Assembly (NCBI GenBank): GCA_022539475.1
Contig: VCMS01000476.1
Span: 1-23,987 of the forward strand
Source of the DNA: Gracilaria domingensis
Lineage: Eukaryota; Rhodophyta; Florideophyceae; Gracilariales; Gracilariaceae
Direction: 5' to 3'
DNA length: 23,987 nucleotides
Below the pieces are notes generated by a model. That model was not told where the DNA came from and did no database searches. It worked only from the letters and a program-made list of their open reading frames with translations. The translations under genes were made by a program, and so were the position numbers. The stretch's first letter is position 1, and every line of letters starts with the position of its first letter. Positions 3,139 through 23,936 of this stretch are shown here, piece by piece.

Positions 3139-3141
3139 TCA
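3139..3141 (-). other. In-frame TGA in transposase
   Basis: The TGA follows an Asn/Ser-rich stretch. The very same frame then reads on for 128 codons with family-like content (VMWTEWKKVL). It is most simply a nonsense mutation. TGA also ends gag and the haloperoxidase gene in this window, so a reassigned TGA is unlikely. Confidence 0.8.
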
Positions 3142-4292
3142 AGAAGACGGTATCACATTGTTACTGTTCGAACTATCATGTATGACAGTCATCATTTCCG
3201 CAGGGGTTTTAGCATCTCTCTCCTTCAATCTTCTCTTTACAAGACCAAATACGCCATCACAGACGTTCTTCGTATGTCCCGCCACCAAGAAATGAAGCGT
3301 TACTCGAGATTCTCTTCCAGATATCACCCTCCAGGCCAGGTAGAAAAGCATGTATTTGTTTTTGTTCTGTCCTGAACAATTATCAGCGTGAAAGGAGAGC
3401 TCTTTGACATTTGTACGATCCTGTTTAAAGCTTTCAATTGTGTGATGTAGCATCGATCCCACCTCATCTGTTGTCTTGTTGCCCGGCCAGTGGCTTTCAG
3501 GAAGCCCATACACGTTTGTATGTCCCACATTACTAACATGTACACCGAAGAAATCAAACTTGAGACCGGTAACGAAATGTAACTGCCCTGGCTGCCGCAA
3601 AAGATGCGGCAGTAAGACTTTTTCCCCAAAATCAAACACGAAATGCAATGATGTTGGCATAGTTCTTGCTCGCCCGTAAACTTCCTTGTAGTACTTAAAT
3701 TCGACTAGAGCCTCTCTACAGTGCTTTCCGAGGGCTTGACGAAGTGCGTCTTGAGTCGATGCGTCCGCGTTATTCTGCAGAGTGTTTTGAAGTTTCGTGC
3801 AAGTGTCACAAAAATCGCTACCCTTCTTCATGATCCGAAGTGTAGGATAGTTCAGTTTCCAAACCTTGCAAAACGAATTCTTAACTAATGGCATTTCCGG
3901 CCGTTTCATCGTCACTGGTTTCTCGTCGAAGTACGCATCCATGACTGCTCTCCATTCGGAGGTATATTTGTCAAACACAGAGGCTGTTGTGGTAGCAATC
4001 GGCAAGAACAAAAGTGGTCGCTCTTCGGACGACCCTCGCCCTGTCGGACATGCCATTGCATGGAGCTCAGCGTATCTGCGTAGAAAGGACAACGCTATGA
4101 TAGATTGGCGAGACAAGAAACCCTTTCTCCTGCTGCTTTCTTTTGCAGAAGGCAACGTGAATGATTCCTTTGAAACCACTTCTGTTGCAAATGATGTTAC
4201 TGTGCGTGGGTAGAGCTGTGTAATCGCGGAGAAAGCGTTGAGGCACAAACCAATTCCCCTCAACGCAAACTTTGTAGTAACTCTTGGCTTCT

Positions 4293-4297
4293 CAGCC
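4293..4297. repeat. Target-site duplication, left copy (CAGCC)
   Basis: CAGCC directly abuts the left LTR and is repeated exactly at 16208-16212 after the right LTR. A 5 bp duplication is usual for Ty3/gypsy integrases. Confidence 0.92.
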
Positions 4298-5059
4298 TGT
4301 TGTGCAAAACCCAGCGATGGGGAAAGACACGCAAAGGCGGTTCAGACCCTCTCTCAAGAGGCGAGCACAGCAGTAGAGCGCTCCCACAGGTACGACACGG
4401 CAATGCCGGGTGTAAGACCGGGGTCGACCCTTCCCAAGTAATGGAGGGAGCGAAGCGGCGAAGAAGAAGCGTCCAGCGGTAGAGAACACACGACACAAGT
4501 CGGCAGTAGCGTCACGTGCGTAGCACGCGGTACCCACGAGTGTGGCGATGACACGCGAGAGCGGTAATAGCCACGCGAGTGTGTCGAGCCACGAACGGTA
4601 TGCACCGGTACACCAAGTAGTGCTACCTGTATAACAGGGACAGAAATAAAGAAAACACACACAAAGTAAACACGCGAAAGCGGTAGTGGTGTTAATGATG
4701 CCGCGAGGCGGATGATGAACCCTGCACAAGGTGTCGACTCTCCGGGAGGAGGATATCGGTCACCAAGGGTGAAACATCAGAGCCGAACACTCGGTTGTTC
4801 CGTTTACTTCCCCGACAATGGGTGCAGCTCAACCTACTAAGTAGTGTAGAGTGCCACTGTCAAGTGTGCAACCGGGCTAACTAAAATAAATAATAAATAT
4901 CTAGAATATCCCAAAGTTGGCTGCCAACCGTCCATACACGTGTGTAGCCATCCAGCAATGATGTGCCAACCTCACCAGAGTCCTTGACCTCCACTGCACT
5001 GCAGGGGCAGTGATTTCACACCAAAAGCGAGCAAATACCGCATAAAGCGTGGCTCTACA
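4298..5059 (-). repeat. 3' LTR (left copy)
   Basis: This 762 bp copy starts TGTTGTGC and ends GCTCTACA on the plus strand, so it has TG...CA ends in either direction. Compared with the right LTR it has G for T near 4365, lacks one C of a CCC run near 4569, and has G for A near 4792. It is the downstream LTR because the polypurine tract adjoins it. Confidence 0.95.
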
Positions 5060-5071
5060 TATCCCCCTTCT
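5060..5071 (-). promoter_or_regulatory. Polypurine tract
   Basis: On the minus strand AGAAGGGGGATA sits immediately before the 3' LTR. A purine run at this spot is the plus-strand DNA primer left by RNase H in LTR retroelements. Its position fixes the element's orientation independently of the ORFs. Confidence 0.85.
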
Positions 5072-7390
5072 GAGGTGCGAACACTACGTCTTCATGACGG
5101 TTGAAGCACCGGACAAACCAACAACGTTGTGCATCCAACCGCAAGAGCGGTATCTGCGAGCGATCGTGATGAATTTGCGCCATCTTACCCGTTTCTGGGT
5201 CTATATGCGTCGTCCTGTACCTCCTATGAAGTTGCGATCACCGTCTATCGACGTGCCATAACGTTCCCGACATCGTCGTGAAAATGGTTGCAGCACGCCC
5301 AGATTGGGGTTCACTGCGTTTCATTCACGCCCAATAACGGTCCTGGAGCCCGCGCAATATGCGTTTGGGCTTCTCTAGTGGGTGCGCAACCAACGTCCTT
5401 GACGGTGCCCTTGCCCGCAGTACGGCGAGCCGACTTCCTGCCAAGCAGTGCTGCAGCAACGCTCGACACACCCGACCGGGAGCGGTCCTCCTGAACTTCG
5501 TTCACTGTCCCGGGGTTCCGGTGCTATACCTCTCTGAGGCGCCTATTTTCCCTTTCAGGGGCGGTTGCCACACTGTGGAATCGACAAGCGCGATCCAAGG
5601 TCACCCAGTACAGTAGCGACCCTTTCCTGCCCAATTCCTTCCTCTCCGAGGTCCACCGTCCCGTTATACGGTCGCTCACATCACGCAATCAAGCGGCACG
5701 TAGTCTCTAGATGGGTTCAGAAGTTACGACATTGTCGAATCAACGCTGCCGACGACGTTTCGGAAACTTCACACAAAGAAATTGGGAATTTGACATACCC
5801 GAAAAATTGTAGTCGCCATAACTTTTGAACCAGCTACGCTCTGAACAAACCCGATACATCGGAGAACTCCTGAGAATCAGAGCTTTCATTTGACAACAAA
5901 ACTGTTGGGATTGAACACCACTAAGTGGGAAAGCCCGACCCATTTCAGTTGACAAAAATGCGGTCTAAAAATAGATTGTTGAACCGAAACGGTGCCGTAG
6001 CTCCAAAGTTCTTCAAGACAATTGCGTTCGGTTTCCGCCAAAGTGTTTGTATACATCCAGTGACTACTGGTACAAAACCGTTGAAGAAACGAGCCAGTAT
6101 TCACCGAGTTACGGGTCTTTTGCAGATGACCCTCGCAAGGTACTGTAGAGGTGATACACCCGACATCGGAGAACCGCGAAAAAGACCAGAAACGACTGGT
6201 AATCGATACCAACGCCTTGTGCGGCTGTACCAGAGACCGCAGAAGCGTAAAAGACGGCCTCCACAACGGAGTGAACAGTAGTAGACGTGGTCGAAAGTCG
6301 TTGACAGCAGCAATTAAACCGGTAATCCGTGAAAACTTTCAACCGGATGACGGCGTACTAGACCTTAATCAAGGTTCAACCTCTACCGAGGGCAGTCACT
6401 AGACCTCACAGAGGGTTCGTGAAACCCAAAATCAAACACACCAGCAAGGCTGAGACAACAAATGACACCATAAAAATGGGTCGCAAAACAACAATGATCC
6501 TTCAACAAGATGTGTATCTTCCGGTCCCGTACCGTGCAGAACTCACGAGAACGTCTCGGTAAGCTTTCGAAAACCCGTGCAAACGGTGAGATGGAATGAT
6601 AGGCCGCAGTGCGGGCGCAAACGAAGCTCCAGAGATATCGGTTAACCAGAAACTATCCTCGACCACGAGAGTGACGAACCCTTACAAAGGTGATGATAAC
6701 CGATGAAGATCGGGGTTCTTCCGCAATATGCGTGACGGTTTCGAACCTCGGCCGCATGTGGCGTGCAGTGAGAACCGTGAAACGTGCAAAGACCGTCACT
6801 GACGAGAACGAACCCTGTTCAACGTGAAAGCCAAACGAACGAGCGGTGCTCCTCGAAAATGGCAAAAGGTGATCAAACCGGTAGATACACATGATGTACA
6901 CGGAAATTGTACACCCTTCTGCTAGGGAAAAACCGTGATTGCGGTCCACTATGGTAGTAGCGAACCCGCAAGCTGGACAAAAAACCTAACAGGTAAACAA
7001 CATCGAAAACGATTGAATAGCGATTAGACACGACATGAGTCGGATTCCAACCGCAAAATGCGAGCAACCAAGTGACCCCACATGGGTGAGAGTCACATGT
7101 GAAACTCCTTCTTCATAACTTCGCATCTGAATGACAATTCCTCTCCATAGAGTCTTCATTCTTCTTCCGAGTGTACTTCATCCTCTTCAGAGTGCAACTA
7201 AACTTCTCCTCACCTGAGGGCATAACTGATCTTGAACTCAACTCTCTTCTTCCTAGAGTGTCTCCTCACCACGCGAGTAGCGGTACAGTACTCCTCTGGA
7301 GGTTGTCGCAGTGTTCCTCGATTGAGTGTTGTCGTTCGTAGAACCGTTCGTGCGCGGTACGCGATACGCCTCCGTCTCCAACGACGTGTG
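5072..7390 (-). other. Retrotransposon 3' internal region without a recognisable gene
   Basis: About 2.3 kb separates the pol stop codon from the polypurine tract. No frame shows an envelope-like signal peptide plus membrane anchor or any other motif; the longest frames are near 120 codons and begin at non-ATG codons. Composition is strongly asymmetric: roughly 6400-7080 is A-rich and T-poor on the plus strand, then the skew flips near 7085, and 7085-7330 is purine-rich on the sense strand with recurring CTCTTC-type motifs (plus strand). It may be a long 3' UTR, a decayed accessory gene, or a region used in packaging or RNA export. Confidence 0.6.
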
Positions 7391-10300
7391 TTATCCGACC
7401 ATCGCTTGATGTAGGTTAGCCGGCAACGCCGTGTTAGTTCGACGATGGTACTGCACGATCTTCGATCGGGGTAAGTGCTCCACGGGTTCGTCCGAATCCC
7501 GCGACGGCGGATAGCCATACCAGCGTACCTGGTACTGAACATACCCCTTCGGATTCCAACTGTGTCCCACGATGTGGTCTACGACGAACTCTTTCGAGTA
7601 TACGCCCCGCTCGAGCTCTTCCTGCGAAGGGTCGTCAGCGCGCTGCGGAGGTGCCGTAACTTCGTGACCAGCGGTGCTGTGAGTTTCTCCTGACGCCTTC
7701 GGCGGTGGATTTGCCCTCTGCTGAGTGTTCGTTTCCCGTTTCCGGGCTTCTTTAAGCAGCTTCGCCGCTTCGGCGGGTCCGCGAACGGCTAGTTCACGCG
7801 GTAGTTCCCGTCTTGACGGTGAAGGCAGACGCGGAGGCGGGTTGTTCACCACGGCACGTGCCGGTTCACGTGACGACACGCGACGTTTCGCGGTGGTGGC
7901 ACTGCCACGAGCTGTGATTGGCCCATTGTGTGGCGCGCGCAGCGCGCCCCAAGATTTGTGGTGCGCAAGCGCTCCTGCAGCTGCAGTGTGCGTTTTCCCT
8001 AAATCAGGGCTGTAATCCGTATCTCCAAAGAGCGGTGCGCCGTCATGACTTAGCGAAACGTCATGACGTGCGACTTGCGACTTCCCCAAAGCTGGGTGCA
8101 ACGGTACACTACCATTACCCGAACCGGGGTGCTTGATCTTCGCTTCAGCGAGCGTCTTCTCTTCTTCCTGCTCTGCAGTGTCAACGATACCGGGATCTGC
8201 CGTGACTACCCTACAGCGCGCCTGCGAAGGCGGTTTGCGGCGGTCGTCAGCGGCGGAGTGCGGCGACTGCGCGTCCGGAATACTCCGTGATACAGTATCC
8301 AGCTTCGCTGTAGCCTTGCTCTGCCGAGAAGTCGGGTGTTCTTGATCAACTTCCGGCCTTGCCGTGGAAACTTCGCGAACGAGAGCATGCTCCGCGTCCT
8401 GCGTCCGTGCGACGATGGGCGCGTGTTCCTGTGACAATTCCCCAGATGGGTGAGCAATACCAGTATCCTGGGACAACCTTGAGTCCGTTCGTTGCGTGCG
8501 GTGTCCTTCCTGAAGGTCGCGATCCTTCGTGGAAGGTTGTGTATCCTCCGCAGAGTTCTGCGCGACAGCGGCCGACTGGAGCGCGTCCTTCGCGGCCTCA
8601 ACACGCGACAGCGGGTGATCCTTCCCACTGACAGTGGTGTCCGTAGCAACTACGTCTTCGACGGTGTCCTGAGGCGACCCCGCCTCCTCTTCATTATCTT
8701 CCCGTGAATCACGGTGCTGCGACGGTAGCGACACCGGTGACTCACTCTCCGCGACGACGCGTGAATCCTCCTCCCCCTCCTTAGGTGGAGCGTTACGGGG
8801 AGCAGTCATCACGTCTGTTGACGGTGTAATAGACGCCGTGAAACGCGATTTCACCAGCGGTGTATGTTCCGATATCTCGGCTTGGGACGATATAATCGGT
8901 ACCTCTGCGAGACCCCTTGCAGGGTTGCGAAGCCCCACAGTAGGTGTAGTGTTCTGCGACGAGAATTCTCGGTTCTGTGTCTGTCCAGCTTCCTGCTGTG
9001 AATCTGAAACTATTTCCGTGTGCACGGTTGGGCCCTGCACAACGCGATCGCGGGAGAAACGCTCATGAGCGTCGCCAACTTCCAGTACGACTGTGTCCGT
9101 ATTCACGCTAATAACGCGGTATGGACCATCAGCGATGGGTGAAAGCTTGTGGCGCCGCTCCTTTTCAGGGTTGTAGTACTCCTTCCTGACAAAGGCGAGG
9201 TTTCCCACTTTCAGTGGCGGTAGTGGTCTCCGTACCCGGGCATCAAAGTTCCGCTTGTAAGCGTGTTGTGCTTTCGCCATTGACGACCTGGCGACAGGTA
9301 CCATTGCGGATAACCACTGCTTCCATTGCAAGTAGTGATCCCGTATTGACGGTGACGTATCCAGCTTTGCTGATGGTTCAACCGCAACTGGCGGTGGTGT
9401 CCGTGAGAGCACGAGCTCAAAGGGCGATAAACCAGTTACTCTGTGAACTTGCGTATTATACGCATACGTCACGGTATCCGTGTAGAGATCCCAAGTTTTC
9501 GGGTGTTCAACAGTATAAGCCCGCAACGCGGAGAGCATCGTCCGGTTAAACCGTTCGACTTGCCCATTGCATTGGGGATGATACGTCGTCGTGAAGAGAT
9601 TCTTCACGTCGAGTATCCGACAGACATCCTGGAAGAAACGTGCAGTAAACTGCGGACCATTATCTGAGAGGAGATTGACCGGGGGACCGTAGACCATAAC
9701 CCAATGGCGAACGAATGCCTCTGCAACACTGCGTGCTGTAATCGACTTCAACGGAACTGTCCGGACTAGCTTACTGAATCTATCCGTAATAACGAGTAAG
9801 AACCGATTTCCTCGGGAAGTACGCAAGAACTCACCGAGTATATCGATGGCAATAAACTCCAACGGCGCCCTTGCGGGGAAAAGTGTTAGTTTCTTCGCAT
9901 GGCGACGCTGTTTAACTCGCTCGCGAGCACAATGTGTACACGCCTTCACGGTGGTGTAGCAGTCCAACGCTAACGCGGGCCAGTAGAAATCCCGACGCAG
10001 TGTCGTGTATAACCGCTTAGCACCCGGATGGGAAGCCATCCGCGAGTGATGCGAGAGATGCAATACCCTTGTTTGTAAGGAGTGAGGAACCACAATCTGT
10101 GGGGTAGAACGAACCACTCTGACGAGGTAACCTTGTGTGTTGACCCCGAACGGGATGTTAGCACCACCATTAATTTGGGAGCGTATCCTCGTACAGAACG
10201 GGTCAGATTGCTGTTCCCGCACCAGCTCTTCTGGAGTAATGGGGACGAATGTACCGGATTCCGGGTCTTCACCGTCTGCGACGAGCAAATCATCACAGAT

Positions 10301-12925
10301 GTCGTCCGACACGATGTCGTAGTCTTCATCACCCTCCTCCATGAGGAAACACGGGATATCTTCATCCTCGTCATCGACGGGTAAAGCTTCACCTTCAGTT
10401 CCTAGACGTGAAAGAGCATCCGCTTGCGCGTTTAAACAACCCTTCTTATAGGTGACCTCGTAGTCAAACTCGGCAAGCCGAAGACGCCAACGCATTAAGC
10501 GTCCGGAAGGCTCCGTGACTGACATTAACCAACGCAAGGCGGAATGATCCGTATTGACGGTAAAGTGCACACCCATAAGATATGGTCGTAGAGTCTGCAA
10601 AGCCCATACCATGGCGAGACACTCCTTCTCGGATACCGAGTAATTGCGCTCGTGCACGTTGAGTGTACGAGACCAATAGCCAATTGGTTTGCGTTCCCCT
10701 TCGGGTGTAGTCTGAAAGAGAGCGCAGCCAATTTGGTAATCGCTCGAATCCGTATCCACGGTGTACGGCAACCCGTTCTTTGGTAACGCTAACACGGGTG
10801 CCGTGGTAACAGCCTCTTTAAGAGAGTTGAAGGCCTCCACTTGCGTGGGGGTAAGTGGTCCCAATTTGGGCGGTTGTCCCTTCTTCAGGAGTTCGTTGAG
10901 CGGTCCCGCGATCTTCGCGAAGCGAGAAATGAACCGTCTATAAACGTTGCATAGCCCTAGAAAGGGGCGTAGCTCTCTCTGTGTAGTGGGGTGCTTCGCC
11001 TCTTTGAGGGACTTCACGCGAGCTTCCTCGATCAGTAACCGTCCTGGACGTATGACATGGCCCAGATACTTCACTGAGTGAGTGAAAAACTCACACTTCC
11101 TCAATTTGAGAGTAATTCCAGCATCCCGCAAAGCGGTCATTATCTCCCGAACATGTTCGAGGTGATCGTCCAAACTGTTGGAAAACACGATGATGTCATC
11201 GAGGTATACCAAGCAACTCCGCCATTTGAAGCGAGCTAATAAAATGTCCAGAGCACGCTGAAACGTAGCGGGGGCGTTCGTTAACCCGAACGGCATACGC
11301 TTAAAGCGGTATAGTCCTGAATGACAGGTAAACGCGGTCTTGTCACGGTCTTCCGGTCTAACTGGTACTTGCCAGTAACCCCAGTTTGCATCCAAAGTGG
11401 AGAAAACAGTAGCATCGCCAAGCGAGTCGATATACTCGTCCATACGAGGTATGGGGTACACGTCTTTGACGGTGACATCGTTCAAGCGACGATAGTCGAT
11501 ACAAAAGCGCCAGGACCCGTCGGGTTTCGGAGCCAGTACAACTGGAGATGCCCACGGCGACTGAGCCGGTTCTATCACGCCAGCGCGGAGCATTTTGTTG
11601 ATCTGAAACTCTTCCTCTTCCCGTGCTTTCGGGCCTGCCCTGTAAGGGTGCTGAGCAATCGGCTTGGTCTCCGGCAGGAGGTCAATCTGGTGTTCCGTAG
11701 TTGAAACCTCTCCGAGGGAGCCATCCCACATTGGTGTAAACTCTCGCAACATGTTGCGCAACTTCTCACGGTGTGAAACCGGTACATGACCGAGATTCAA
11801 TTCTTCTAACTCCTCGATAGGGTCAATCTTGTCATAACTCGTAGGAACGGTCCTAGCTTCCGAGTCATTCGTGTGTTCAACCGTCTGGGACGGGTCCGAC
11901 GCAGACGAGCGCGACGATTCTCCCTCCCCCTCCTTAGGGTGAAGCAAACCAGTGCGTTCTTCAGCAAGCCCGAGCATCTCGGCGGCAGTCACCTTTGTAG
12001 GGATAAGCGCCGTAGGGTGCGGTAAGACAGAACCAATTACTTGGTTCTTCACCAGATACTGGGGCTTCTTGCCAAAGTTGGCCAACAGAACCCGAAAGGG
12101 GTCTTCGCCGTTGATTTGAACAACTCCGTTCGCCAACGCGACCTGATACTTCTCGTATAACGAGTTCAATGGTTGAACAACCCGCAAACCACGCGGTGCG
12201 GCAGTAACATCAACCCAAACCTGGGATTCTGGCGGAATAGAAATTGCACGCGCTACGCGGAGCTTCGGCGACTCCTTCGGAGGTGAGGAATCCTGTAGAG
12301 GAGCGGGTAGTGGTACCAGCTTAGCTGACGCTCGGCGTAATGAGCGACGAACAATCGGTACAACCGAACCATCTTCCATTTCCACTTCACGCGCACGCGG
12401 TCGTATGGCTTCGACATATCTGTCGCAGAAGTCACACCCTAGAATGACAGGGGCAGCGAGCGTCTTGCAGACGATGAATTCTACCTGCTCGATGCAGTTA
12501 CCAATCCTGACAATCAGTGAAACCATTCCAGCCGTTTGTAACGGGTTATTGTTAGCATCTGCCACGTCCATGACGGGTCCAGAGCGGACTCGACAACGGA
12601 GTTCCGGCGGTAGTAATGACTCAACAATGAAGTTGGGGCCAGCACCTGTATCCAAGACAGAGAGATGACGCACCATATACTGGGTGGATAGGCCAAGGTC
12701 AGCAAATATCTTGTAGTTTCGCTTGGCCATTACCATGACTCGATCCGGGATCCGGTTGTTCCTGAACCGTATCCACGGGCGACGTAACACACCGATGGTG
12801 GTAGAGTCCACGTCTAAGACGGTCTGTTTCCTCGAAAGGATTTTGACCTGGGAGCGAGGCGGTGACGCCTCGGGCGCCGTAGACCTCGACTCGGGCGCCT
12901 CTCCATTGGAGACTCCCGTACTCAG
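7391..12925 (-). CDS. pol: Pol polyprotein (protease, RT, RNase H, integrase, chromodomain)
   Basis: It is expressed by -1 frameshifting from gag at 12925-12931; the frame is open from there to the TAA at 7391, with 38 codons before the GTG at 12811 used here as residue 1. Protease: DTGAGPN, catalytic D54. RT: about 380-600, with D474 in STLDANWGYW and YLDD at 536-539. RNase H: D686, E728, D755. An acidic patch follows at 811-852. Integrase: H922/H928...C958/C961 zinc site, then D990, D1050, E1086 (35 residues between the last two, as in DD35E), and a GPY module at 1229-1231. Residues 1258-1737 are a low-complexity linker. Chromodomain: about 1738-1790 (EFVVDHIVGH...VQYQVRWYGY), expected to target insertion to histone-marked chromatin. 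All motifs are intact. The linker, about 480 residues, is unusually long. Confidence 0.96.
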   Translation of the reverse strand: MSTGVSNGEAPESRSTAPEASPPRSQVKILSRKQTVLDVDSTTIGVLRRPWIRFRNNRIPDRVMVMAKRNYKIFADLGLSTQYMVRHLSVLDTGAGPNFIVESLLPPELRCRVRSGPVMDVADANNNPLQTAGMVSLIVRIGNCIEQVEFIVCKTLAAPVILGCDFCDRYVEAIRPRAREVEMEDGSVVPIVRRSLRRASAKLVPLPAPLQDSSPPKESPKLRVARAISIPPESQVWVDVTAAPRGLRVVQPLNSLYEKYQVALANGVVQINGEDPFRVLLANFGKKPQYLVKNQVIGSVLPHPTALIPTKVTAAEMLGLAEERTGLLHPKEGEGESSRSSASDPSQTVEHTNDSEARTVPTSYDKIDPIEELEELNLGHVPVSHREKLRNMLREFTPMWDGSLGEVSTTEHQIDLLPETKPIAQHPYRAGPKAREEEEFQINKMLRAGVIEPAQSPWASPVVLAPKPDGSWRFCIDYRRLNDVTVKDVYPIPRMDEYIDSLGDATVFSTLDANWGYWQVPVRPEDRDKTAFTCHSGLYRFKRMPFGLTNAPATFQRALDILLARFKWRSCLVYLDDIIVFSNSLDDHLEHVREIMTALRDAGITLKLRKCEFFTHSVKYLGHVIRPGRLLIEEARVKSLKEAKHPTTQRELRPFLGLCNVYRRFISRFAKIAGPLNELLKKGQPPKLGPLTPTQVEAFNSLKEAVTTAPVLALPKNGLPYTVDTDSSDYQIGCALFQTTPEGERKPIGYWSRTLNVHERNYSVSEKECLAMVWALQTLRPYLMGVHFTVNTDHSALRWLMSVTEPSGRLMRWRLRLAEFDYEVTYKKGCLNAQADALSRLGTEGEALPVDDEDEDIPCFLMEEGDEDYDIVSDDICDDLLVADGEDPESGTFVPITPEELVREQQSDPFCTRIRSQINGGANIPFGVNTQGYLVRVVRSTPQIVVPHSLQTRVLHLSHHSRMASHPGAKRLYTTLRRDFYWPALALDCYTTVKACTHCARERVKQRRHAKKLTLFPARAPLEFIAIDILGEFLRTSRGNRFLLVITDRFSKLVRTVPLKSITARSVAEAFVRHWVMVYGPPVNLLSDNGPQFTARFFQDVCRILDVKNLFTTTYHPQCNGQVERFNRTMLSALRAYTVEHPKTWDLYTDTVTYAYNTQVHRVTGLSPFELVLSRTPPPVAVEPSAKLDTSPSIRDHYLQWKQWLSAMVPVARSSMAKAQHAYKRNFDARVRRPLPPLKVGNLAFVRKEYYNPEKERRHKLSPIADGPYRVISVNTDTVVLEVGDAHERFSRDRVVQGPTVHTEIVSDSQQEAGQTQNREFSSQNTTPTVGLRNPARGLAEVPIISSQAEISEHTPLVKSRFTASITPSTDVMTAPRNAPPKEGEEDSRVVAESESPVSLPSQHRDSREDNEEEAGSPQDTVEDVVATDTTVSGKDHPLSRVEAAKDALQSAAVAQNSAEDTQPSTKDRDLQEGHRTQRTDSRLSQDTGIAHPSGELSQEHAPIVARTQDAEHALVREVSTARPEVDQEHPTSRQSKATAKLDTVSRSIPDAQSPHSAADDRRKPPSQARCRVVTADPGIVDTAEQEEEKTLAEAKIKHPGSGNGSVPLHPALGKSQVARHDVSLSHDGAPLFGDTDYSPDLGKTHTAAAGALAHHKSWGALRAPHNGPITARGSATTAKRRVSSREPARAVVNNPPPRLPSPSRRELPRELAVRGPAEAAKLLKEARKRETNTQQRANPPPKASGETHSTAGHEVTAPPQRADDPSQEELERGVYSKEFVVDHIVGHSWNPKGYVQYQVRWYGYPPSRDSDEPVEHLPRSKIVQYHRRTNTALPANLHQAMVG

Positions 12926-13916
12926 TTTAACTGAGTTCCATCCGTTCTAACGGGAACGGCGTCCTGTGCAGCAGGCATCTTCACAGATTCCTGTGGAACA
13001 GCGACAGAACTACCCGCAACAGCGGTTGCCGCCACGGCTTGAGCCGGTGAAACATTGACCTGGGTCGAACCAGAGTGCAGTAACGCAGCCAATTCTGCAG
13101 CAGACACCCTACGGGGGTACTCAGCCTTCGCACGCAGATATGCGGTTACCGGCACTGACGCCTGTTCGGCGGGGGTCAGCGCTTCAAAATTCGCCACAAC
13201 CGTGGGCATTTCCCTCATCGAGAGGTTGCAGTTCGGAGCTGCATGACCGTGGTTGTAACACGTGAAACAGATCAGGGGTGGTCTTCCGGAACTCCGTTGG
13301 TCTTGGAACTTCACCGTTCGCGGGTCTACCCAACCAGGTCGCTGGTAACGACTCCCTGAATAGGGTACTTGAGGACCGCGAACGCGTGGACGGTCTGCGT
13401 AAAGCAGCGCATCTTCCGTCTTCGACGAGGCTTCTGAAGTAGAAGGCAACTCCGTAGTCGGAATAGAATCCAGGTCCACCTGTGCGAGATGTAAGTTATC
13501 CACATCGTGGCCAGAAAAGTCCTGCGGTAGCAGTGAAGCTGATGACGACCCTCCTTCGAGGTGCAACGCTTTGGTTGAAACCCGGTATCCGATGCGTGCG
13601 CGCAAGGCGTCTCCCTCCGCCTTCGCGTACTGCACTAACTCCAGATAGGTAGTCTTCTTCCGGTCTTCCCGTCGCTGGGCAACCAGAGTGCGAATAGCCG
13701 GATTCAATCCGTTGATAAACAGCGTACAGCGCTCGTTTGAGGAGTAAACATTGCCACAACGGTGGAATGCCTTATTCAGGCGTACCGAGTACTCGGTTTC
13801 CGACTCCTTCGGGCGTTGTTTCGTCTCCCGCAACGCGGTGATTGCTTCCTCGATAGAGGTATTTGTCGCATACGAGCGCAACAAATACTGCACTGCTTCG
13901 GCCAGCAGGTGACCCC
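12922..13916 (-). CDS. gag: Gag, C-terminal part (rest of capsid, zinc knuckle)
   Basis: This continues gag in the -1 frame after the break at 13913-13916. The first ATG in this frame is not a real start: the frame is open from a TGA just upstream and picks up the capsid fold where the other frame leaves it. The retrotransposon-gag domain runs on through the ETKQRPKESETEYSVRLNKAF region. The nucleocapsid knuckle is CFTCYNHGHAAPNC, an exact C-x2-C-x4-H-x4-C, about residues 209-222 from the ATG at 13893. The frame ends at a TGA (12922-12924) directly after the slippery site feeding pol. Confidence 0.85.
12925..12931 (-). promoter_or_regulatory. Gag-Pol -1 ribosomal frameshift site (GTTAAAC)
   Basis: In the gag frame the minus strand reads G TTA AAC followed at once by the gag stop TGA. 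Pol is in the -1 frame and open through this point. GTTAAAC fits the slippery heptamer scheme and is, from memory, the site used by equine arteritis virus. Downstream, a 5 bp stem TCTCC/GGAGA starts 12 bases after the heptamer, two copies of GGCGCCCGAG follow, and then a 6 bp hairpin GAGGCG/CGCCTC with loop TCAC. These could stimulate slippage. The site is seen; its use is inferred. Confidence 0.8.
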
Positions 13917-15005
13917 TCCTTCAGAGGCGCGAGATGAACCTCTTACAGAGTTATACTGATCTTCAGCGAGTCCCCGTAGAAAATACGGTAAGGCAACATA
14001 AGCTTGCCCCTCACTCATGCCGAGGATGTCAGCTTCCGCTACAAAGCGTGAAAGAAAGTCAAGCACCAGAATGGGATCCTCCCCAGTGAACAACTGGTTG
14101 CGAAAGGTTAAGGACATGCGTTTGATGCAGTCCTTCACCTTACCCGTGCCACGGGGCGTCCGGTTCAGACTTGAATCTTCCAAACGGTAATACCGGTAAG
14201 ATAACAACCTTTTGAACAAGGGATTCGTCGGCTCCAGTTCCCTCAAACCTGAGTGCTTTCGCCCCCGTTTCCGGGTACCAAAAACACCATAGGTGGACGT
14301 AGAACTCCGCGAACGCGTAGAACGAGCGCGACGTTCACCGTCACTTGACGAGCTCGATGATAAGGAACCCGCCGAGCGGTTTGAAATACCAGAAGACTGT
14401 GACGAATCCGAGTCATACTCGTCGACATTCCTCTTCTTAGAGCGACTCTTCCCGGACTTCCGGTCACGTGTACCACGAGACACTCCCGCAGAGGCGGCAG
14501 CAGGGCCGTCATCCTCACGGATGGTGGCCTCTAACGTCTCAAGACGGCCAAGAATTCGAATGAACTTCGTGTCGACCTCCTCGGTGAAACCGGGATATCC
14601 TTGAAGAACCTCCAAGAGTGCATTAACATCCTTCCGTAAAATACGTAGATCATCTGATACACCTCCGTTGAGGGCTGCGTCAACCTTCAAACGAAGTGTG
14701 TCGACCTCGGAAACGAGTGCTTCATGAGAACTCCTCATGACAGCAGTCTGAGCCTCAAGCACACGAACTTGAGTCTCCAACTCGTTTACGAGCGCATCCT
14801 TCGCCGCGACAGCGGGTATAAGACCCTCCAAAGGAGCAGATGAGGGCCCAGCCACTGGGGCGTCAGACGACTTGACAGGCTGTTTCCGGTTTCCGGGTTT
14901 CTTTCCATCACCCTGTAGGGGTTCAGGAACAGACCGCAGACGCGGGGGCAAGCCAGAGCCAACGGAGCGAGACTTCGTAGGGCTCGAGCGCTTGCTAGAC
15001 ACCAT
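13776..15005 (-). CDS. gag: Gag, N-terminal part (coiled coil, basic/Ser-rich, start of capsid)
   Basis: The start is taken at the ATG 15003-15005; the upstream extension uses only a TTG. After a basic Ser/Pro-rich head comes a predicted coiled coil (VNELETQVRVLEAQ to ILGRLETLEA), then an Arg/Ser-rich stretch with runs of serine and acidic residues, then the first part of the retrotransposon-gag capsid domain (PILVLDFLSRFVAEADILGM, LPYFLRGLAEDQYNSV). Past 13913 the frame turns into Cys/Arg-rich nonsense and stops at 13776, while the family-like sequence resumes in the -1 frame. The natural protein is therefore this part plus the following entry. Gag forms the cytoplasmic virus-like particle and packages element RNA. 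Confidence 0.85.
   Translation of the reverse strand: MVSSKRSSPTKSRSVGSGLPPRLRSVPEPLQGDGKKPGNRKQPVKSSDAPVAGPSSAPLEGLIPAVAAKDALVNELETQVRVLEAQTAVMRSSHEALVSEVDTLRLKVDAALNGGVSDDLRILRKDVNALLEVLQGYPGFTEEVDTKFIRILGRLETLEATIREDDGPAAASAGVSRGTRDRKSGKSRSKKRNVDEYDSDSSQSSGISNRSAGSLSSSSSSDGERRARSTRSRSSTSTYGVFGTRKRGRKHSGLRELEPTNPLFKRLLSYRYYRLEDSSLNRTPRGTGKVKDCIKRMSLTFRNQLFTGEDPILVLDFLSRFVAEADILGMSEGQAYVALPYFLRGLAEDQYNSVRGSSRASEGGVTCWPKQCSICCARMRQIPLSRKQSPRCGRRNNARRSRKPSTRYA
13913..13916 (-). other. Frame break in gag (G-run)
   Basis: On the sense strand a run of four G is where capsid-domain coding passes from one frame to the -1 frame. The change equals one missing base. There is no good X-XXY-YYZ heptamer at the point, so a mutation or homopolymer sequencing error is more likely than programmed frameshifting. 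Confidence 0.7.
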
Positions 15006-15424
15006 CGTACACGACGAGAAACGACCAGAAAACTGGGAACAGGAAAGCAAACAACAAATTAACCTCGAATGAGTGTAGCGTCCTCACACGAGTGACGATA
15101 ACCGACAAATCGGACGAACCAACCGTACCAACGGGAACAGCCGTATACGGAATTAGGGCTGATTCGACCAGATTGCTGGGAACGGTAGACAACCCAAACG
15201 GGGTGACAACAACCGTACCGACGGGAATCACACACTACGGAAATAGGTAGTGCCACCGGTAGTAAACCGTGTCCAAACAACAACCCCAAATGAAGAAAGC
15301 AGTACCAACACGACGTCTGTCGGCAGAGCCTTCCAGTAGAAACTGTGTAGTGTATCTCCACGACCAGATACGAACCGGCAAACCGAAAATTGATCAGAAA
15401 ACCAACTTGCTGGATCAACGCGAC
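15006..15424 (-). other. Retrotransposon 5' leader
   Basis: About 420 bp lie between the primer-binding site and the gag ATG. It contains two diverged copies of a roughly 38 bp motif (15117-15155 and 15207-15245), each with ACCGTACCnACGGGAA followed by CTACGG- or TATACGG-type sequence. No ORF of note. Leader regions commonly hold packaging or dimerisation signals, and the repeat is a candidate for one. Confidence 0.55.
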
Positions 15425-15442
15425 TTCTAAGTCGGGAGACCA
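15425..15442 (-). promoter_or_regulatory. Primer-binding site (candidate tRNA-Tyr type)
   Basis: On the minus strand, two bases after the 5' LTR end, comes TGGTCTCCCGACTTAG. TGG pairs with the CCA of a tRNA. The first ten bases, TGGTCTCCCG, are complementary to a tRNA ending CGGGAGACCA, which as I recall is the 3' end of budding-yeast tRNA-Tyr. The tRNA of this host is unknown, so the identity is tentative; the location and TGG start are secure. Confidence 0.7.
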
Positions 15443-15444
15443 AT

Positions 15445-16207
15445 TGTTGTGCAAAACCCAGCGATGGGGAAAGACACGCAAAGGCGGTTCAGACCCTCTC
15501 TCAAGAGGCGATCACAGCAGTAGAGCGCTCCCACAGGTACGACACGGCAATGCCGGGTGTAAGACCGGGGTCGACCCTTCCCAAGTAATGGAGGGAGCGA
15601 AGCGGCGAAGAAGAAGCGTCCAGCGGTAGAGAACACACGACACAAGTCGGCAGTAGCGTCACGTGCGTAGCACGCGGTACCCACGAGTGTGGCGATGACA
15701 CGCGAGAGCGGTAATAGCCCACGCGAGTGTGTCGAGCCACGAACGGTATGCACCGGTACACCAAGTAGTGCTACCTGTATAACAGGGACAGAAATAAAGA
15801 AAACACACACAAAGTAAACACGCGAAAGCGGTAGTGGTGTTAATGATGCCGCGAGGCGGATGATGAACCCTGCACAAGGTGTCGACTCTCCGGGAGGAGG
15901 ATATCGGTCACCAAGGGTGAAACATCAGAGCCGAACACTCGATTGTTCCGTTTACTTCCCCGACAATGGGTGCAGCTCAACCTACTAAGTAGTGTAGAGT
16001 GCCACTGTCAAGTGTGCAACCGGGCTAACTAAAATAAATAATAAATATCTAGAATATCCCAAAGTTGGCTGCCAACCGTCCATACACGTGTGTAGCCATC
16101 CAGCAATGATGTGCCAACCTCACCAGAGTCCTTGACCTCCACTGCACTGCAGGGGCAGTGATTTCACACCAAAAGCGAGCAAATACCGCATAAAGCGTGG
16201 CTCTACA
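15445..16207 (-). repeat. 5' LTR (right copy)
   Basis: This 763 bp copy is the promoter LTR, since transcription runs toward lower coordinates through gag and pol. Ends are TGTTGTGC...GCTCTACA on the plus strand. It is nearly identical to the left LTR (two substitutions, one indel). Confidence 0.95.
16029..16050 (-). promoter_or_regulatory. Candidate TATA region in U3
   Basis: On the sense (minus) strand an AT-only block, ATATTTATTATTTATTTTAG, lies about 160 bases into the 5' LTR and stands out against a GC-balanced background. It is the best TATA-like site in the LTR and predicts a start roughly 30 bases further on. An identical block is in the left LTR near 4881-4903. No experimental support is visible. 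Confidence 0.4.
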
Positions 16208-16212
16208 CAGCC
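16208..16212. repeat. Target-site duplication, right copy (CAGCC)
   Basis: Exact match to 4293-4297, flanking the right LTR. Confidence 0.92.
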
Positions 16213-19622: not shown

Positions 19623-21134
19623 TCACCGTCCGAGAATTCCTTCAGAGAGACAACGAGTGCAGTTATTGGGCACACGTCCTTCTCCCAACGTCTTCATATG
19701 TTGAAATACGATCCGCCCAATTCCGCGTCCAATTCGCTCACCAGCAGGAAGCGCAGGCGGAAAGTGTACCCCGGCCCATAACCGACTTTGCGCGCAGTTG
19801 GCTGCTGCCTGAAGCGGGCTACCAAACGCCACGGTAGTGTCCTGCGGCAAAAAGAACGGCAAGCTTCCAGCAGCATATCGGATCTTGATGCTGGGAACGA
19901 ATCCCATTTTGTTGCGCACATATGTTTCAATGTGCTCCATGGCAGCAGTGCACAGAGCAGCACTTCCAGACGGGAACTCAGAATGTGGTTGAGCACTAAT
20001 CAACGAACGCCAATCCTCTGCGCGAACTTGGCCGAAGCCAACCTCCTCGCTGATAAATGAATTGAAGCGCTGGTTGCGTCGCAGATTGCGAATAAGAGTG
20101 CCAGGTCGAACGAGATCATGCCTGCGCTTCTCCCTCCACGTCAACACCAACGCATCGTGTTGACTAAGCATCTCACCCAAGAACTGCTGCGCCACCTGAA
20201 ACGGAGTCAGCTGCGCCGCGGTCTCGTAGAAGCCAGAAATGCCGCCCGTGGACAAGAGCTTGTTGTCCCACCATCTTGCGTAGAAGCGTTGCTGCGGGGT
20301 TACGGTGGCAGCCGTCTCCAGTACTTGATTGACGAGACGCTCTGCCACGCGTCGATCCCTGTAGCTAATTTTGCGAGCGTTTGGTCTCCGGAACGGCGGC
20401 GACACACGACGTTTGGCAGCCTCTGCTGCGGGCACAATGAGTGGATCGACAGCTCTGGCAATCTGAGGGACAACGTGAATTTGATGGGCCAAACGGGCGT
20501 TGCCCAAGTCGAGCTGATCCGGCACCCATCGCAGAGGACGTGCGAGTCGGAAGGGCTCATCGTACGGTGAGTTGACAGGTCGGTAGCCAGTAAAGTCTTC
20601 AAACGGAACGCGGCCCGTCTGTCTCGAGCGATCTCCCAGCGAATTCCAGCCGTCATTCTGGAAGAAATTCGCAAGGCGGTCTCCGGCCCTATTGGCCCAG
20701 CCGTTGAGCGTGGAGGGATCACGCGACGGGGACACGGGTTCGAGGTTTAAGCGGCGAAGGAAGTCGGCGTAGCCACTCATCTCGCTGGGGAACTCGCGCA
20801 GCAGGGCGCGAAAGGTGGCGTACGAGGCGAGGATGGCGTTGTTGTCAGGCTCGCAGAAGGAGGGTGGGACGGTGTCATTGGTGCCGAAGAAGGAGAGCGC
20901 ATCGGGCTCACAGGCGGCGCGGGCATCGTAAATGGCGGCGCCCCCGATCAAGGTGTAGCGCACGACGACGGGCGTCTCGGCAAACAGGAGGCGGGGCGGG
21001 GTGATGGCGCCGGCGGCGTCGTTGATGGGCAGGAAGTCGAGAAACAGCTGCTCGGCAAGCGACTCGCTGCGGGTCTGGACGGCGGTGGGGAAGAAGAGCG
21101 CGGAGAGAAGCGGGAGCAGGAGCAGCGGCGGCAT
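19623..21134 (-). CDS. Vanadium-dependent haloperoxidase-like protein, secreted
   Basis: A PAP2/vanadium-haloperoxidase superfamily enzyme that would bind vanadate (or phosphate) and, if a haloperoxidase, oxidise halide with hydrogen peroxide. The start is placed at the ATG 21132-21134, because it gives a clean signal peptide (MPPLLLLPLLSALFFPTAVQ); the open frame upstream to 21314 is proline-rich and GC-biased. Length is then 503 residues. In upstream-frame numbering the oxyanion ligands match by spacing: K396 and R403 (7 apart), S449-G450, R511 and H517 (6 apart, the covalent vanadate ligand). The usual acid-base histidine of the SGH motif is a serine here (EFPSGSAAL). The motif set resembles the NapH1/DUF6851-type branch. 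No introns needed; stop is TGA. Predicted extracellular or secretory. Halide preference cannot be read from sequence. Confidence 0.85.
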   Translation of the reverse strand: MPPLLLLPLLSALFFPTAVQTRSESLAEQLFLDFLPINDAAGAITPPRLLFAETPVVVRYTLIGGAAIYDARAACEPDALSFFGTNDTVPPSFCEPDNNAILASYATFRALLREFPSEMSGYADFLRRLNLEPVSPSRDPSTLNGWANRAGDRLANFFQNDGWNSLGDRSRQTGRVPFEDFTGYRPVNSPYDEPFRLARPLRWVPDQLDLGNARLAHQIHVVPQIARAVDPLIVPAAEAAKRRVSPPFRRPNARKISYRDRRVAERLVNQVLETAATVTPQQRFYARWWDNKLLSTGGISGFYETAAQLTPFQVAQQFLGEMLSQHDALVLTWREKRRHDLVRPGTLIRNLRRNQRFNSFISEEVGFGQVRAEDWRSLISAQPHSEFPSGSAALCTAAMEHIETYVRNKMGFVPSIKIRYAAGSLPFFLPQDTTVAFGSPLQAAANCAQSRLWAGVHFPPALPAGERIGRGIGRIVFQHMKTLGEGRVPNNCTRCLSEGILGR

Positions 21135-22193
21135 GACGAGGAGAAGAAGCGCGCGGTAGGGTAGCACGCAGTGCGGAGCCGGAGCGGAAAGCGCGGCGCG
21201 GCGAGCCACTTGGCCATGATGTCGGGGCGGGGGGGGTGGTACAGGTAGTGGGGGGGAGCGCGGCAGGGGGGGCCGGGCGCAACGGCAGTATCCACGGCGA
21301 CCCACGGCGGGCAAACGGTGGGGTGTAGGCGGCGCGGCAGCTACGCGGTCGGGCGCGCGCTAACGCACGCAGCGCTGCGTGCTGCTCACTTTACATGCGC
21401 AGCCAGCCGCCTGTTTACCGTTGGCGAACGCCACTGCGCGCCCGCGCTGCGCGCCTCCGCGCTGCGCCGCGCGCGCGCCGCGCGCACGCGCCGCCACGCG
21501 CGCGCCACGCGCGCCACGCGCCGTCATACGTCACGCCCGCCGTGCCGCGCCGCGCGCGCAGCGCGCGATGCGCCGGTTGACAGTGTAAACGGCGCGCGCG
21601 CGCGCATTCCCGCACTCGCGGTCACGGCCGCGCCACTCGCCGCCCGCTCGCGAGCGCGCGTGGCCGCGCCGCGATTTTGATTTTGCGAGACGCGCGATGC
21701 AGCGCAGCGCTGCAGCGCGCGCCCGAGAGCTTCGAGCGTCGAGAGATGACACGCGCTGCATCATCTTATAAACGCGTGGGACGCCGCTTTATTCCGGCCG
21801 TTTGGCGCCGCGCGCGCACGTTTCCATCCGCGCGCAGAGCGCCCACGCGCGCGCTGCGTCGCGCTGCAGGACGCGCGCCGCCATTTGCGCCGCCTTCGTG
21901 CGAGTCGAGCAATTCAGTGACGCGCGCTCGTACAAATCACCGCGTCTCTGCATACAGTGTAAGGCATAATCCACTCGCGCACCTCCACAAAAGCGGCGAG
22001 CAGCAAACATCGGCGCGCGCGCCAATGGCCTCGCGCCACGTCGCCAGCGACGGCGCCCGTGGCGCGCGCGCTTGCGCGCTGCGTGGAGCGCGCCGCCTGC
22101 GCTTCGCGCGCGCGCGCATCTGGGTGTGAGCGATCCTTTCGAGCCACGTTACTCTCCGCGCCGCGCCATCGCTGCGGCCTGATCCCCCGCGTC
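21135..22193. promoter_or_regulatory. GC/CpG-rich divergent intergenic region (putative bidirectional promoter)
   Basis: About 1.06 kb separates the divergent starts of the haloperoxidase and AIF genes. 21430-21720 and 22000-22190 are dominated by GCGCGC-type sequence, far above the rest of the window. TTATAAA at 21766-21772, about 420 bp before the AIF start, is the only clear TATA-like site. The left part is G-rich on the plus strand (21222-21280), with several runs of four or more G. Long overlapping open frames in all directions here are a by-product of the missing AT-rich stop codons and are not called as genes. Confidence 0.6.
21222..21280 (+). other. G-run tract with G-quadruplex potential
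   Basis: GGGGCGGGGGGGG, GGGGGGG, GGGGGGG and CCGGG occur within about 60 bases. This meets the four-run quadruplex pattern on the plus strand, which is the template for the haloperoxidase 5' region. Confidence 0.6.
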
Positions 22194-23936
22194 ATGTTCG
22201 CGCCGCGCCGCGCGCTTGCCGCCCTGCTGGTGGCCGCTTCCCCCCCCGCGCTCGCGCTCTCGGAAGCGCCGCCGGCCCCGCCTCCATCGCACCCCGATCA
22301 GCTGCGAGATCTGCTGCAAAACGCGAGGAGGCTGTCCGCGCACCCCGTCGCCGTCAAACCGCCCTTCGCTTCGATCGAGTCCCCCGCCGACCTGCACGCC
22401 GCTCGACAGCTCCTGGATCGCTACTATGCACTTTCTACAGACGCTATCCAGCAAGCCGCCCTTGCTGAACCGCGCGCCGTCACGCAGCCGCACGCCAACA
22501 AGTCAAAGCTCGCCCCGAAGAGAACGCCTGCGGACAAAGTCTTCCGACCGCTTCCTCCGCACACCTTTTCCGCCCCTGCGTGCGTCAAGTACCTTATTGT
22601 GGGCGGTGGCACTGCTGCATGGTCTGCCATTGACGCCATCTTACAGCATGACCCTCTAGCAGTCAACCAGGTCCTGCTCATTAGTCATGAGCCCCTTCTC
22701 CCGTACAATCGCACAATGCTCTCCAAGGAGCTCTTCGAGAGCGACCAGTTGCAGTCGCCCGTATCGCCTTCACATGTGCAATACGCCTACAAGCATTTCA
22801 AACCCGAGATGGAAAACGCAAAGGTGTCCGTCACCAACGAAACCGCCGTGTTGCTAGATCCAGATGACAAATTTGTACAGCTCTCTTCTGGTCATCGAGT
22901 AACATACAACAAGCTACTGCTTGCAACGGGCGGTGCACCACGAGCTGCGGCGTCCGTCACCCCAGCCTTGGGAGCGCCAGACATCAAACAACATGTTTCC
23001 ACATTCCGCACGTTGGAAGATTACCACAGTCTGCGAGACAAGCTACAGCACCCAGATCAATCAGTGGTGGTCGTCGGTGGCGGATTTTTAGGTACTGAGC
23101 TTGCGCTTGCCCTCACCGCTCTTTCCAACAATGTTACGCTGCTGATAACGATCCAGGCGTGCTCTTCGCGTGCTACCTCGCTACTTGTGCCAATTTCTTG
23201 CCAAAAAGCTCGGCAAAGCAGGTGTTAATGTTGTACAGAGTGCTGTCATCACAGATGCAACACCGTCGGCCGATCAACAATGCAACCTGACTTTACATGT
23301 TGACGCCACAGAGCCAACGCAGCTTGATGCCAATCATGTCGTTGTGGCAGTAGGCATCGATCCTTCCACACATCTCGCCAAGACTGGCGGTTTGGAATTG
23401 ATCCCAGCAACTCTGGGATCCGCGTTAACGATTTCATGATGGTTGAACCCGATGTGTTTGCAGCGGGCGATGTTGCCTCGTTTCATGACCGTGCATTGGG
23501 CCGTCGACGTGTTGAACATTGGGACCATGCTGTCGTCAGTGGCAAGATTGCTGGTGCTAACATGACCGGCGCTAGAGAACGGTACAAACTGCATCCATGT
23601 TTTGGAGCGATCTGTCTGCAATTGATGTACACTTTACCGCTGTTGGTCTTGTTGACTCTGCTCTACAAACAGTGGCTGTGTGGATCTTGCTAGTGAGGGG
23701 AGTCTTGATTTACCACGCTCAACGAATATCAATCTGGTGTCGTTTATTATCTAAACGAGCGAAGCGAAATTGTTGTGTTGTACTGTGGAATCCAAAGAGA
23801 GGTGCTGGCGCCTGCGAAGGGCAAGGGCTTTGGGTTGACGCGAAGACGAACGTTCAGGCTTCTTGACGAAGACACGCTTGCCGCCCTCGTCAACCGTCGA
23901 GGCAGGATGATTTGTCGCGCATACATACGAGACTAA
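22194..23936 (+). pseudogene. Apoptosis-inducing factor-like oxidoreductase, frame broken in 3' third
   Basis: A pyridine nucleotide-disulfide oxidoreductase of the AIF type: FAD/NADH flavoprotein, normally of the mitochondrial intermembrane space. The start is the ATG at 22194, giving an Arg/Ala-rich possible targeting segment (FAPRRALAALLVAA). FAD Rossmann motif YLIVGGGTAAWSA about 133-145; SHEPLLPYNRTMLSKEL about 164-180 is the conserved AIF block; LLLATGG about 241-247; NAD motif VVVVGGGFLGTE 291-302. The frame is intact to about codon 317. Then family-like sequence changes frame near 23145, 23168, 23416 and 23597, and probably near 23678, 23735 and 23776, each step equal to one lost base. 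VFAAGDVASF (second FAD site) and MFWSDL followed by an AIF C-terminal domain are all present. The last frame stops at TAA 23934-23936. Either a decaying gene or poor sequence at a contig edge; the latter is favoured. Uninterrupted pieces: 22194-23228, 23170-23439, 23436-23693, 23597-23866. Confidence 0.85.

Follow-up and report, generated by a model that had tools for sequence, protein, structure and literature searches.

A probable -1 frameshift signal at the gag-pol junction of a chromovirus family in the red alga Gracilaria domingensis

How is pol translated in a retrotransposon whose pol frame lies at -1 relative to gag, and whose gag frame ends in a stop codon where the two frames overlap? 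This question is raised by a long terminal repeat (LTR) retrotransposon on the minus strand (4298-16207) of the Gracilaria domingensis contig VCMS01000476.1 (assembly GCA_022539475.1), the only such element in the stretch of 23,987 nucleotides (nt) analyzed here, which we refer to as the window. We regard it as very probable, from comparison of the junction with its relatives, that this likely algal chromovirus makes its Gag-Pol product by -1 programmed ribosomal frameshifting at the heptamer GTTAAAC.

Frame layout at the junction and its copies in the genome

The features that bear on this reading are as follows.

12925..12931, minus strand: putative slippery heptamer G-TTA-AAC, placed by the gag register and found in the same register in relatives
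12922..12924, minus strand: gag stop codon TGA, abutting the heptamer
12922..13920, minus strand: 3' portion of gag, whose frame leads into the heptamer; no Pfam match of its own, although its homologs carry PF03732
13776..15083, minus strand: 5' portion of gag, shifted in the window copy to another frame by a copy-specific break
7391..12946, minus strand: pol frame, -1 relative to gag and open for 1851 codons, with a DTGAGPN protease motif, reverse transcriptase, RNase H, integrase and chromodomain

An earlier reading made from the sequence alone (the sequence-only reading) had placed GTTAAAC directly before the gag stop with pol in the -1 frame, and both points are confirmed: the heptamer occupies 12931-12925, TGA 12924-12922, and the pol frame runs without a stop from 12946 to 7391. 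Gag ends in the codons TTA and AAC, followed at once by TGA, while the pol frame reads GTT AAA CTG AGT, and the frames overlap by about 25 nt. The second open reading frame overlaps the first in -1, with an X_XXY_YYZ heptamer in register within the overlap, and the X of the window's heptamer differs from the next two letters, as it does in equine arteritis virus. We infer slippage because this layout follows the established heptamer rule.

In the mechanism that we propose, ribosomes reading gag would move back by one base at GTTAAAC, immediately ahead of the gag stop, held there by a predicted four-way RNA junction that begins 7 nt past the heptamer. The tRNAs on TTA and AAC would re-pair on GTT and AAA, and reading would go on through CTG-AGT-ACG into pol. 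For any ribosome that stays in the gag frame the next codon would be TGA, where it would release Gag, and the ratio of Gag to Gag-Pol would be set in this way. Such a shift would be expected to yield the trans-frame tryptic peptide TDGTQLNLSTGVSNGEAPESR. The least certain elements are that the adjacent stop may itself help slippage, a role suggested by analogy with plant viruses, and that a small hairpin enclosing the heptamer may tune it.

The junction could in principle be an accident, a single gag-pol frame split by a one-nucleotide insertion or deletion in this copy or its assembly, and the window copy does carry a break elsewhere in gag, which the sequence-only reading had not remarked: the gag frame is split near 13776-13920 (minus strand). 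The other copies in the genome (77.9 Mb in 680 contigs) separate the two. The 28 letters around the junction have 124 genome matches within three mismatches, and 20 loci of the window's family, the window included, were fetched with a query spanning the junction. All 20 keep GTTAAACTGA, with the same heptamer and stop, and 19 have the protease in -1; gag is open over all 656 captured codons in 13 of them, the window not being one of the 13. Some copies have both frames open throughout the captured stretch, and the layout is found again in diverged families as well as in other organisms. An accident at the junction is already refuted by these sequence comparisons, and we give it practically no credence. 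Because 13 of 20 loci keep gag open and 19 of 20 have the protease in -1, the mid-gag split is, as read from these copies, damage private to some of them, and the junction is design. A second programmed shift in mid-gag was considered and ruled out, gag being open through that place in the same 13 loci. We note that two other loci, L001 and L020, have a gag break at about the same place as the window's.

More distant copies came from a degenerate DNA search for the protease motif from which the window's own codon form was excluded (187 + 27 matches). From the 127 matches listed (100 of the 187 and all 27 of the 27) we fetched 52 copies, 40 chosen for their spread over motif variants and 12 from two families to settle the frame. 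One of six heptamers, a set defined after the data had been seen, lies within five codons before the gag-frame stop in 40 of the 52; seven have near-matches and five have none within five codons of the stop. The heptamers differ by family (GTTAAAC, GAAAAAC, GGGAAAC, GGAAAAC or GGAAAAA, and GTTGGGA). Of the 40 heptamer copies, 34 have the protease in -1, five in +1 and one in the same frame; in these six off-frame copies the distance from heptamer to protease is one base off that of sister copies, as insertions or deletions (indels) would give, and indels are probably their origin. The odd frames of L026 and L051 likewise look like indels, since other copies of both families are -1.

Chance had been judged unlikely in the sequence-only reading, and the counts bear this out: in-phase NNNAAAC makes up 12 of 5220 heptamers (0.0023) in 11 gag frames, whereas 34 of the 52 protease-motif copies have it within five codons before the stop. 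Patterns with the heptamer's first G, its last C and the stop fixed and four letters free, which carry no claim that the G and C are invariant, gave 287 + 106 genome matches and none with the reversed-pattern control. Among the 100 matches listed of the 287, 78 were GAAAAAC, nine GGGAAAC, six GAGAAAC and seven others; among the 100 listed of the 106, 99 were GTTAAAC and one GTTGAAC. A tree of 29 chosen rows, midpoint-rooted for drawing only and subject to a long-branch warning, shows two deep groups with heptamer letters that differ along it. Most rows of the window's group have the stop abutting the heptamer (GAAAAAC, GGGAAAC, GTTAAAC), and in the second group it abuts (GTTGGGA) or comes after one or five codons (GGAAAAA, GGAAAAC, GGGAAAC). 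Among these 29 rows GTTAAAC occurs only on the window's branch.

Pol could instead be translated separately, from its own internal AUG or by reinitiation, with the heptamer incidental. A little upstream of the protease the pol frame does contain Met codons (codons 66 and 68 counted from the heptamer in the window family), and the predicted start of many pol homologs falls on the corresponding Met. However, in eight rows selected because their pol frame is open, the pol-frame protein upstream of that Met can be aligned beginning at the heptamer codons, and this speaks against internal initiation. The first Met comes anywhere from codon 31 to codon 70, with none common to all eight rows in between, and the upstream protein is recognizable in P0001, a homolog from another source. 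With a background near 0.002 for NNNAAAC at one given place, an incidental heptamer is also hard to credit, and separate translation retains a slim chance at most. Readthrough of the gag stop was rejected, as the gag frame past TGA meets a further stop about 36 codons on, and pol lies in a different frame. A second GTTAAAC, at 9916-9910, lies inside pol, does not fit the register and is attributed to chance.

Predicted RNA structure at the heptamer

Structures that stimulate frameshifting usually lie about 5-9 nt downstream of the slippery site. The window has the following candidates.

12850..12917, minus strand: predicted four-way junction, from folds and covariation
12917-12912 with 12855-12850, minus strand: predicted outer stem GGGAGU/GCUCCC, closing three hairpins after a 7-nt spacer from the heptamer
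12920..12936, minus strand: inverted repeat ACTCAG-TTAAA-CTGAGT, tentatively a 6-bp hairpin around heptamer and stop, from the sequence and weak covariation

The sequence-only reading had seen two candidate stems within 75 bases downstream; structure is indeed predicted there, but its extent was undercounted, since the predicted fold has three hairpins and an outer stem. RNAalifold applied to 19 junctions gave an outer stem closing hairpins, together with a hairpin around the heptamer. We then scored an alignment of 37 rows, made up of 17 of those 19 (L055 and L027 left out) and 20 new ones, with the caveat that shuffle tests are inflated by related rows and that the structured stretch also codes for pol. 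For the downstream structure (24 pairs), 92.7% of cells are paired, nine pairs are changed on both sides against 5.3 in shuffled alignments (reached by 8 of 500 shuffles), and double-change cells number 45 against 17.4 (reached by none of 500). When the partners are slid as a control, pairing falls to 37-53% and double-change cells to 4-21. With its 7-nt spacer and this covariation, the predicted outer stem is consistent with a stimulator of the shift.

Single folds point the same way in several rows. The window RNA folds at -41.7 kcal/mol (z -2.1) in the four-way form; within its group z is -3.4 for L023 and -3.8 for L033, and in the second group it is -4.1 for L031 and -2.6 for L047.

The hairpin enclosing the heptamer is unproven as a real structure: in the 37-row model it is 83.8% paired, with nine double-change cells against 3.9 (reached by 4 of 500 shuffles), and it is broken in rows with CCG preceding the heptamer. 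In L047 and L048, which have GTTGGGA, we observed by eye a complementarity between CAGTTGGG, which takes in most of the heptamer, and CCCAACTG in the loop of the AGGCCTTCC/GGAAGGCCT hairpin further downstream. Going by this complementarity, a pseudoknot involving the slippery site itself is possible in these two copies.

Relatives in other organisms and known recoding systems

The layout leaves a trace in Gag proteins from elsewhere. The C-terminal residue is Asn in 24 of 37 gag homologs, where 1.4 would be expected (binomial 1e-25, an overstated value, as it treats related proteins as independent), whereas each of the other eleven of the last twelve positions has zero to three Asn. The residue before the terminal Asn in these 24 is Lys in 16, Gly in four, Glu in three and Ala in one, which fits NNA-AAC-stop. 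The five closest named homologs are all from the red alga Agarophyton chilense (45-62% identity over 52-99% of the query). The attribution to a plant or algal type of element made in the sequence-only reading fits the host on this ground and because light-harvesting proteins (PF00504) match 11 genome stretches above the cut-off, with one of 14 control genomes, a cyanobacterium, also positive. A fungal host, which the domains flanking the element had at first suggested, was rejected on these same two grounds. Two Agarophyton chilense gene models hit by gag (P0042 and P0053) end, by eye, in pol-like sequence, as they might if a short intron across the stop joined gag and pol in a spliced mRNA. 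The kept heptamer register, the adjacent stop and the covarying structure would serve no role in splicing, though, and we consider an intron very improbable.

DNA from other organisms was available as 13 loci on eukaryotic-looking contigs filed under prokaryotic metagenome-assembled genomes (MAGs), where the upstream frame is presumed to be gag from its position. Pol is -1 relative to this frame in seven of the 13, and in five the heptamer abuts the upstream-frame stop.

L096: GGAAAAC abutting TGA, pol -1
L097: GGGAAAC abutting TAG, pol -1
L100: GGAAAAC abutting TAG, pol -1
L103: GTTAAAC abutting TAG, pol -1
L106: AAAAAAC abutting TAG, pol -1
L101: TTTTTTC one codon before TAA, pol -1
L104: TTTAAAC 16 codons before the stop, pol -1

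In the five abutting loci the best folds have a stem that begins within about 8 nt of the heptamer, and z ranges from -3.7 to +0.8 over the seven other-organism stretches folded. As judged from these sequences, the abutment of heptamer and stop recurs even in elements as distant as L103, whose best segment has about 30% identity. Conservation in related elements, the check that the sequence-only reading had called for, thus turned out in its favor, with register, stop and downstream structure kept across copies, families and other organisms. We note separately that L096-L106, eukaryotic-type LTR retrotransposons, sit under bacterial or archaeal MAGs (Moorena, Robiginitomaculum, Limnohabitans and others), and that bin contamination is the likely explanation. 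L107 and L108 are too short to judge. Scans of viral contigs found no relative.

A number of observations weigh against frameshifting at a conserved signal. By pairing rules, GTTAAAC and GAAAAAC permit only near-cognate re-pairing of the P-site tRNA. In the genome, 12 of the 52 copies lack a clean heptamer within five codons before the stop, and six of the 40 that have one carry the protease in another frame. Elsewhere, the gag homologs of the second group end in Asn less clearly (7 of 20), the heptamers of L101 and L104 do not abut the stop, three of the 13 loci (L098, L099 and L102) have one long frame through pol, and L105 has a different arrangement without frame overlap. As to structure, further pair types number 28 against 25.8 in shuffled alignments, a value reached by 56 of 500; the fold z is weak for L029 of the second group (-0.2), L037 (-1.8), L106 (-0.8) and L101 (+0.8); the four-way form of L097 (-33.4 kcal/mol, lower stem omitted) is 10.7 kcal/mol less stable than its best fold (-44.1); one pair of the heptamer-enclosing hairpin fails in 12 of 37 rows; and the fold programs used are blind to pseudoknots. 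Frameshifting at the heptamer nevertheless remains the reading that we hold with high confidence.

The closest viral parallel is the ORF1a/1b junction of equine arteritis virus, in which a stop codon abuts the heptamer. It shares GUUAAAC, which the sequence-only reading had linked to an arterivirus, along with a -1 shift and a structure 5 nt downstream (PMC3835772, in its Table 1), but is that of a virus with a pseudoknot, whereas here a retrotransposon has a predicted multibranch junction. At the polymerase sites of barley yellow dwarf virus (BYDV, a luteovirus), red clover necrotic mosaic virus (RCNMV, a dianthovirus) and pea enation mosaic virus (PEMV, an umbravirus), a stop likewise comes directly or 3 nt after the slippery site, next to a stimulatory stem. 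A paper on these sites (PMC4737148) reports that PEMV uses G-GAU-UUU with a P-site mismatch and that changing its stop to a sense codon brings shifting down 72% in vitro; for BYDV it gives conflicting results on the stop, and its authors call the mechanism unknown. These are plant RNA viruses with UUU in the A site, however, and the PEMV stimulator is a bulged hairpin with long-distance pairing.

Among LTR retrotransposons, pol in -1, with separate frames and a slippage motif at the overlap, is described in a 2003 survey (cited in PMC5009743) and for choanoflagellate Sroscv4/5 (PMC6875170). The sites of the choanoflagellate chromoviruses are given as 6-bp motifs, the two plant types with separate frames in the 2003 survey had pol in +1, and the available parts of both sources make no mention of an adjacent stop or a branched junction. 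The heptamer-enclosing hairpin recalls the human immunodeficiency virus type 1 (HIV-1) anchoring helix and the T4 gene 60 take-off stem loop, in which sequence just 5' of the recoding site pairs with sequence 3' of it (PMC5009743), although here the hairpin would enclose only heptamer and stop and its support is weak. A search of the literature on GUUAAAC with frameshifting, with subscription papers mostly outside its coverage, returned no retrotransposon case. The sequence-only reading had called GTTAAAC in a plant/algal-type retrotransposon notable; the surprise is somewhat smaller than claimed because sister families use GAAAAAC or GGGAAAC, a stop after the site is known in plant RNA viruses, and a distant element has GTTAAAC.

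It is possible, although we stop short of calling it probable, that red-algal chromoviruses and their relatives in other eukaryotes share one compact cassette of heptamer, fused gag stop and branched junction at a fixed distance, preserved as one block even as the P-site letters change (GAA, GTT, GGG, GGA). The heptamer-closing hairpin would co-vary with it, and the stop would be part of the machine, as in luteo- and umbraviruses.

The element, its surroundings and the significance of the signal

The remaining features of the element are its ends.

15445..16207, minus strand: 5' LTR, 763 nt, with three differences from the other LTR
4298..5059, minus strand: 3' LTR, 762 nt
4293..4297, no strand: target-site duplication CAGCC, copy 1, 5 bp
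16208..16212, no strand: target-site duplication CAGCC, copy 2, 5 bp

LTRs and a target-site duplication are as found in chromoviruses. Pol matches PF00078, PF17917, PF17921, PF00665 and the chromodomain PF00385 (29 bits, cut-off 25.1), in the order reverse transcriptase, RNase H, integrase, with the chromodomain after integrase and near the terminus, and the element is therefore a chromovirus (Ty3/gypsy). The protease piece of pol matched no Pfam family and is named from its DTGAGPN motif, which begins 279 nt past the heptamer start. Gag had no match in the Pfam search of the window's proteins, and scans of the window with Rfam at gathering thresholds and for tRNAs gave none. Between the integrase core and the chromodomain (7394-9499, minus strand) about 660 residues are without a Pfam match and by eye are charged and of low complexity. 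The interval of about 2.3 kb from pol to the 3' LTR (5060-7390) has no same-strand frame much above 150 codons, and AT skew within it reaches 0.27 at 6001-7000. A frame matching DUF7869 (3139-4263, minus strand) lies 34 bases from the element's edge, and given this neighbor the insertion may be in or beside another repeat or gene. On the other flank are two host-like frames, one with DUF6851 and a vanadium haloperoxidase-type helical domain (19623-21314, minus strand) and one for a pyridine nucleotide-disulphide oxidoreductase (22059-23228, plus strand).

Each of the components, -1 gag-pol frameshifting, GUUAAAC and a stop next to the heptamer, already has a precedent elsewhere. Going by the literature searched and the available parts of its sources, three things are apparently new: that likely algal chromoviruses combine them, that P-site letters turn over while the layout stays fixed, and that the likely stimulator is a branched junction. 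Within a single genome the same frameshift signal occurs in hundreds of natural variants, in which the slippery letters vary while stop, spacing and fold are largely kept. They form a test set for how far the eukaryotic ribosome tolerates P-site mismatch (GTT, GAA and GGA against GGG) and for whether a stop directly after the slippery site aids the shift. A likely algal lineage would also be added to the users of -1 gag-pol frameshifting; the 2003 survey cited in PMC5009743 had listed plant elements with separate frames as +1 types only.

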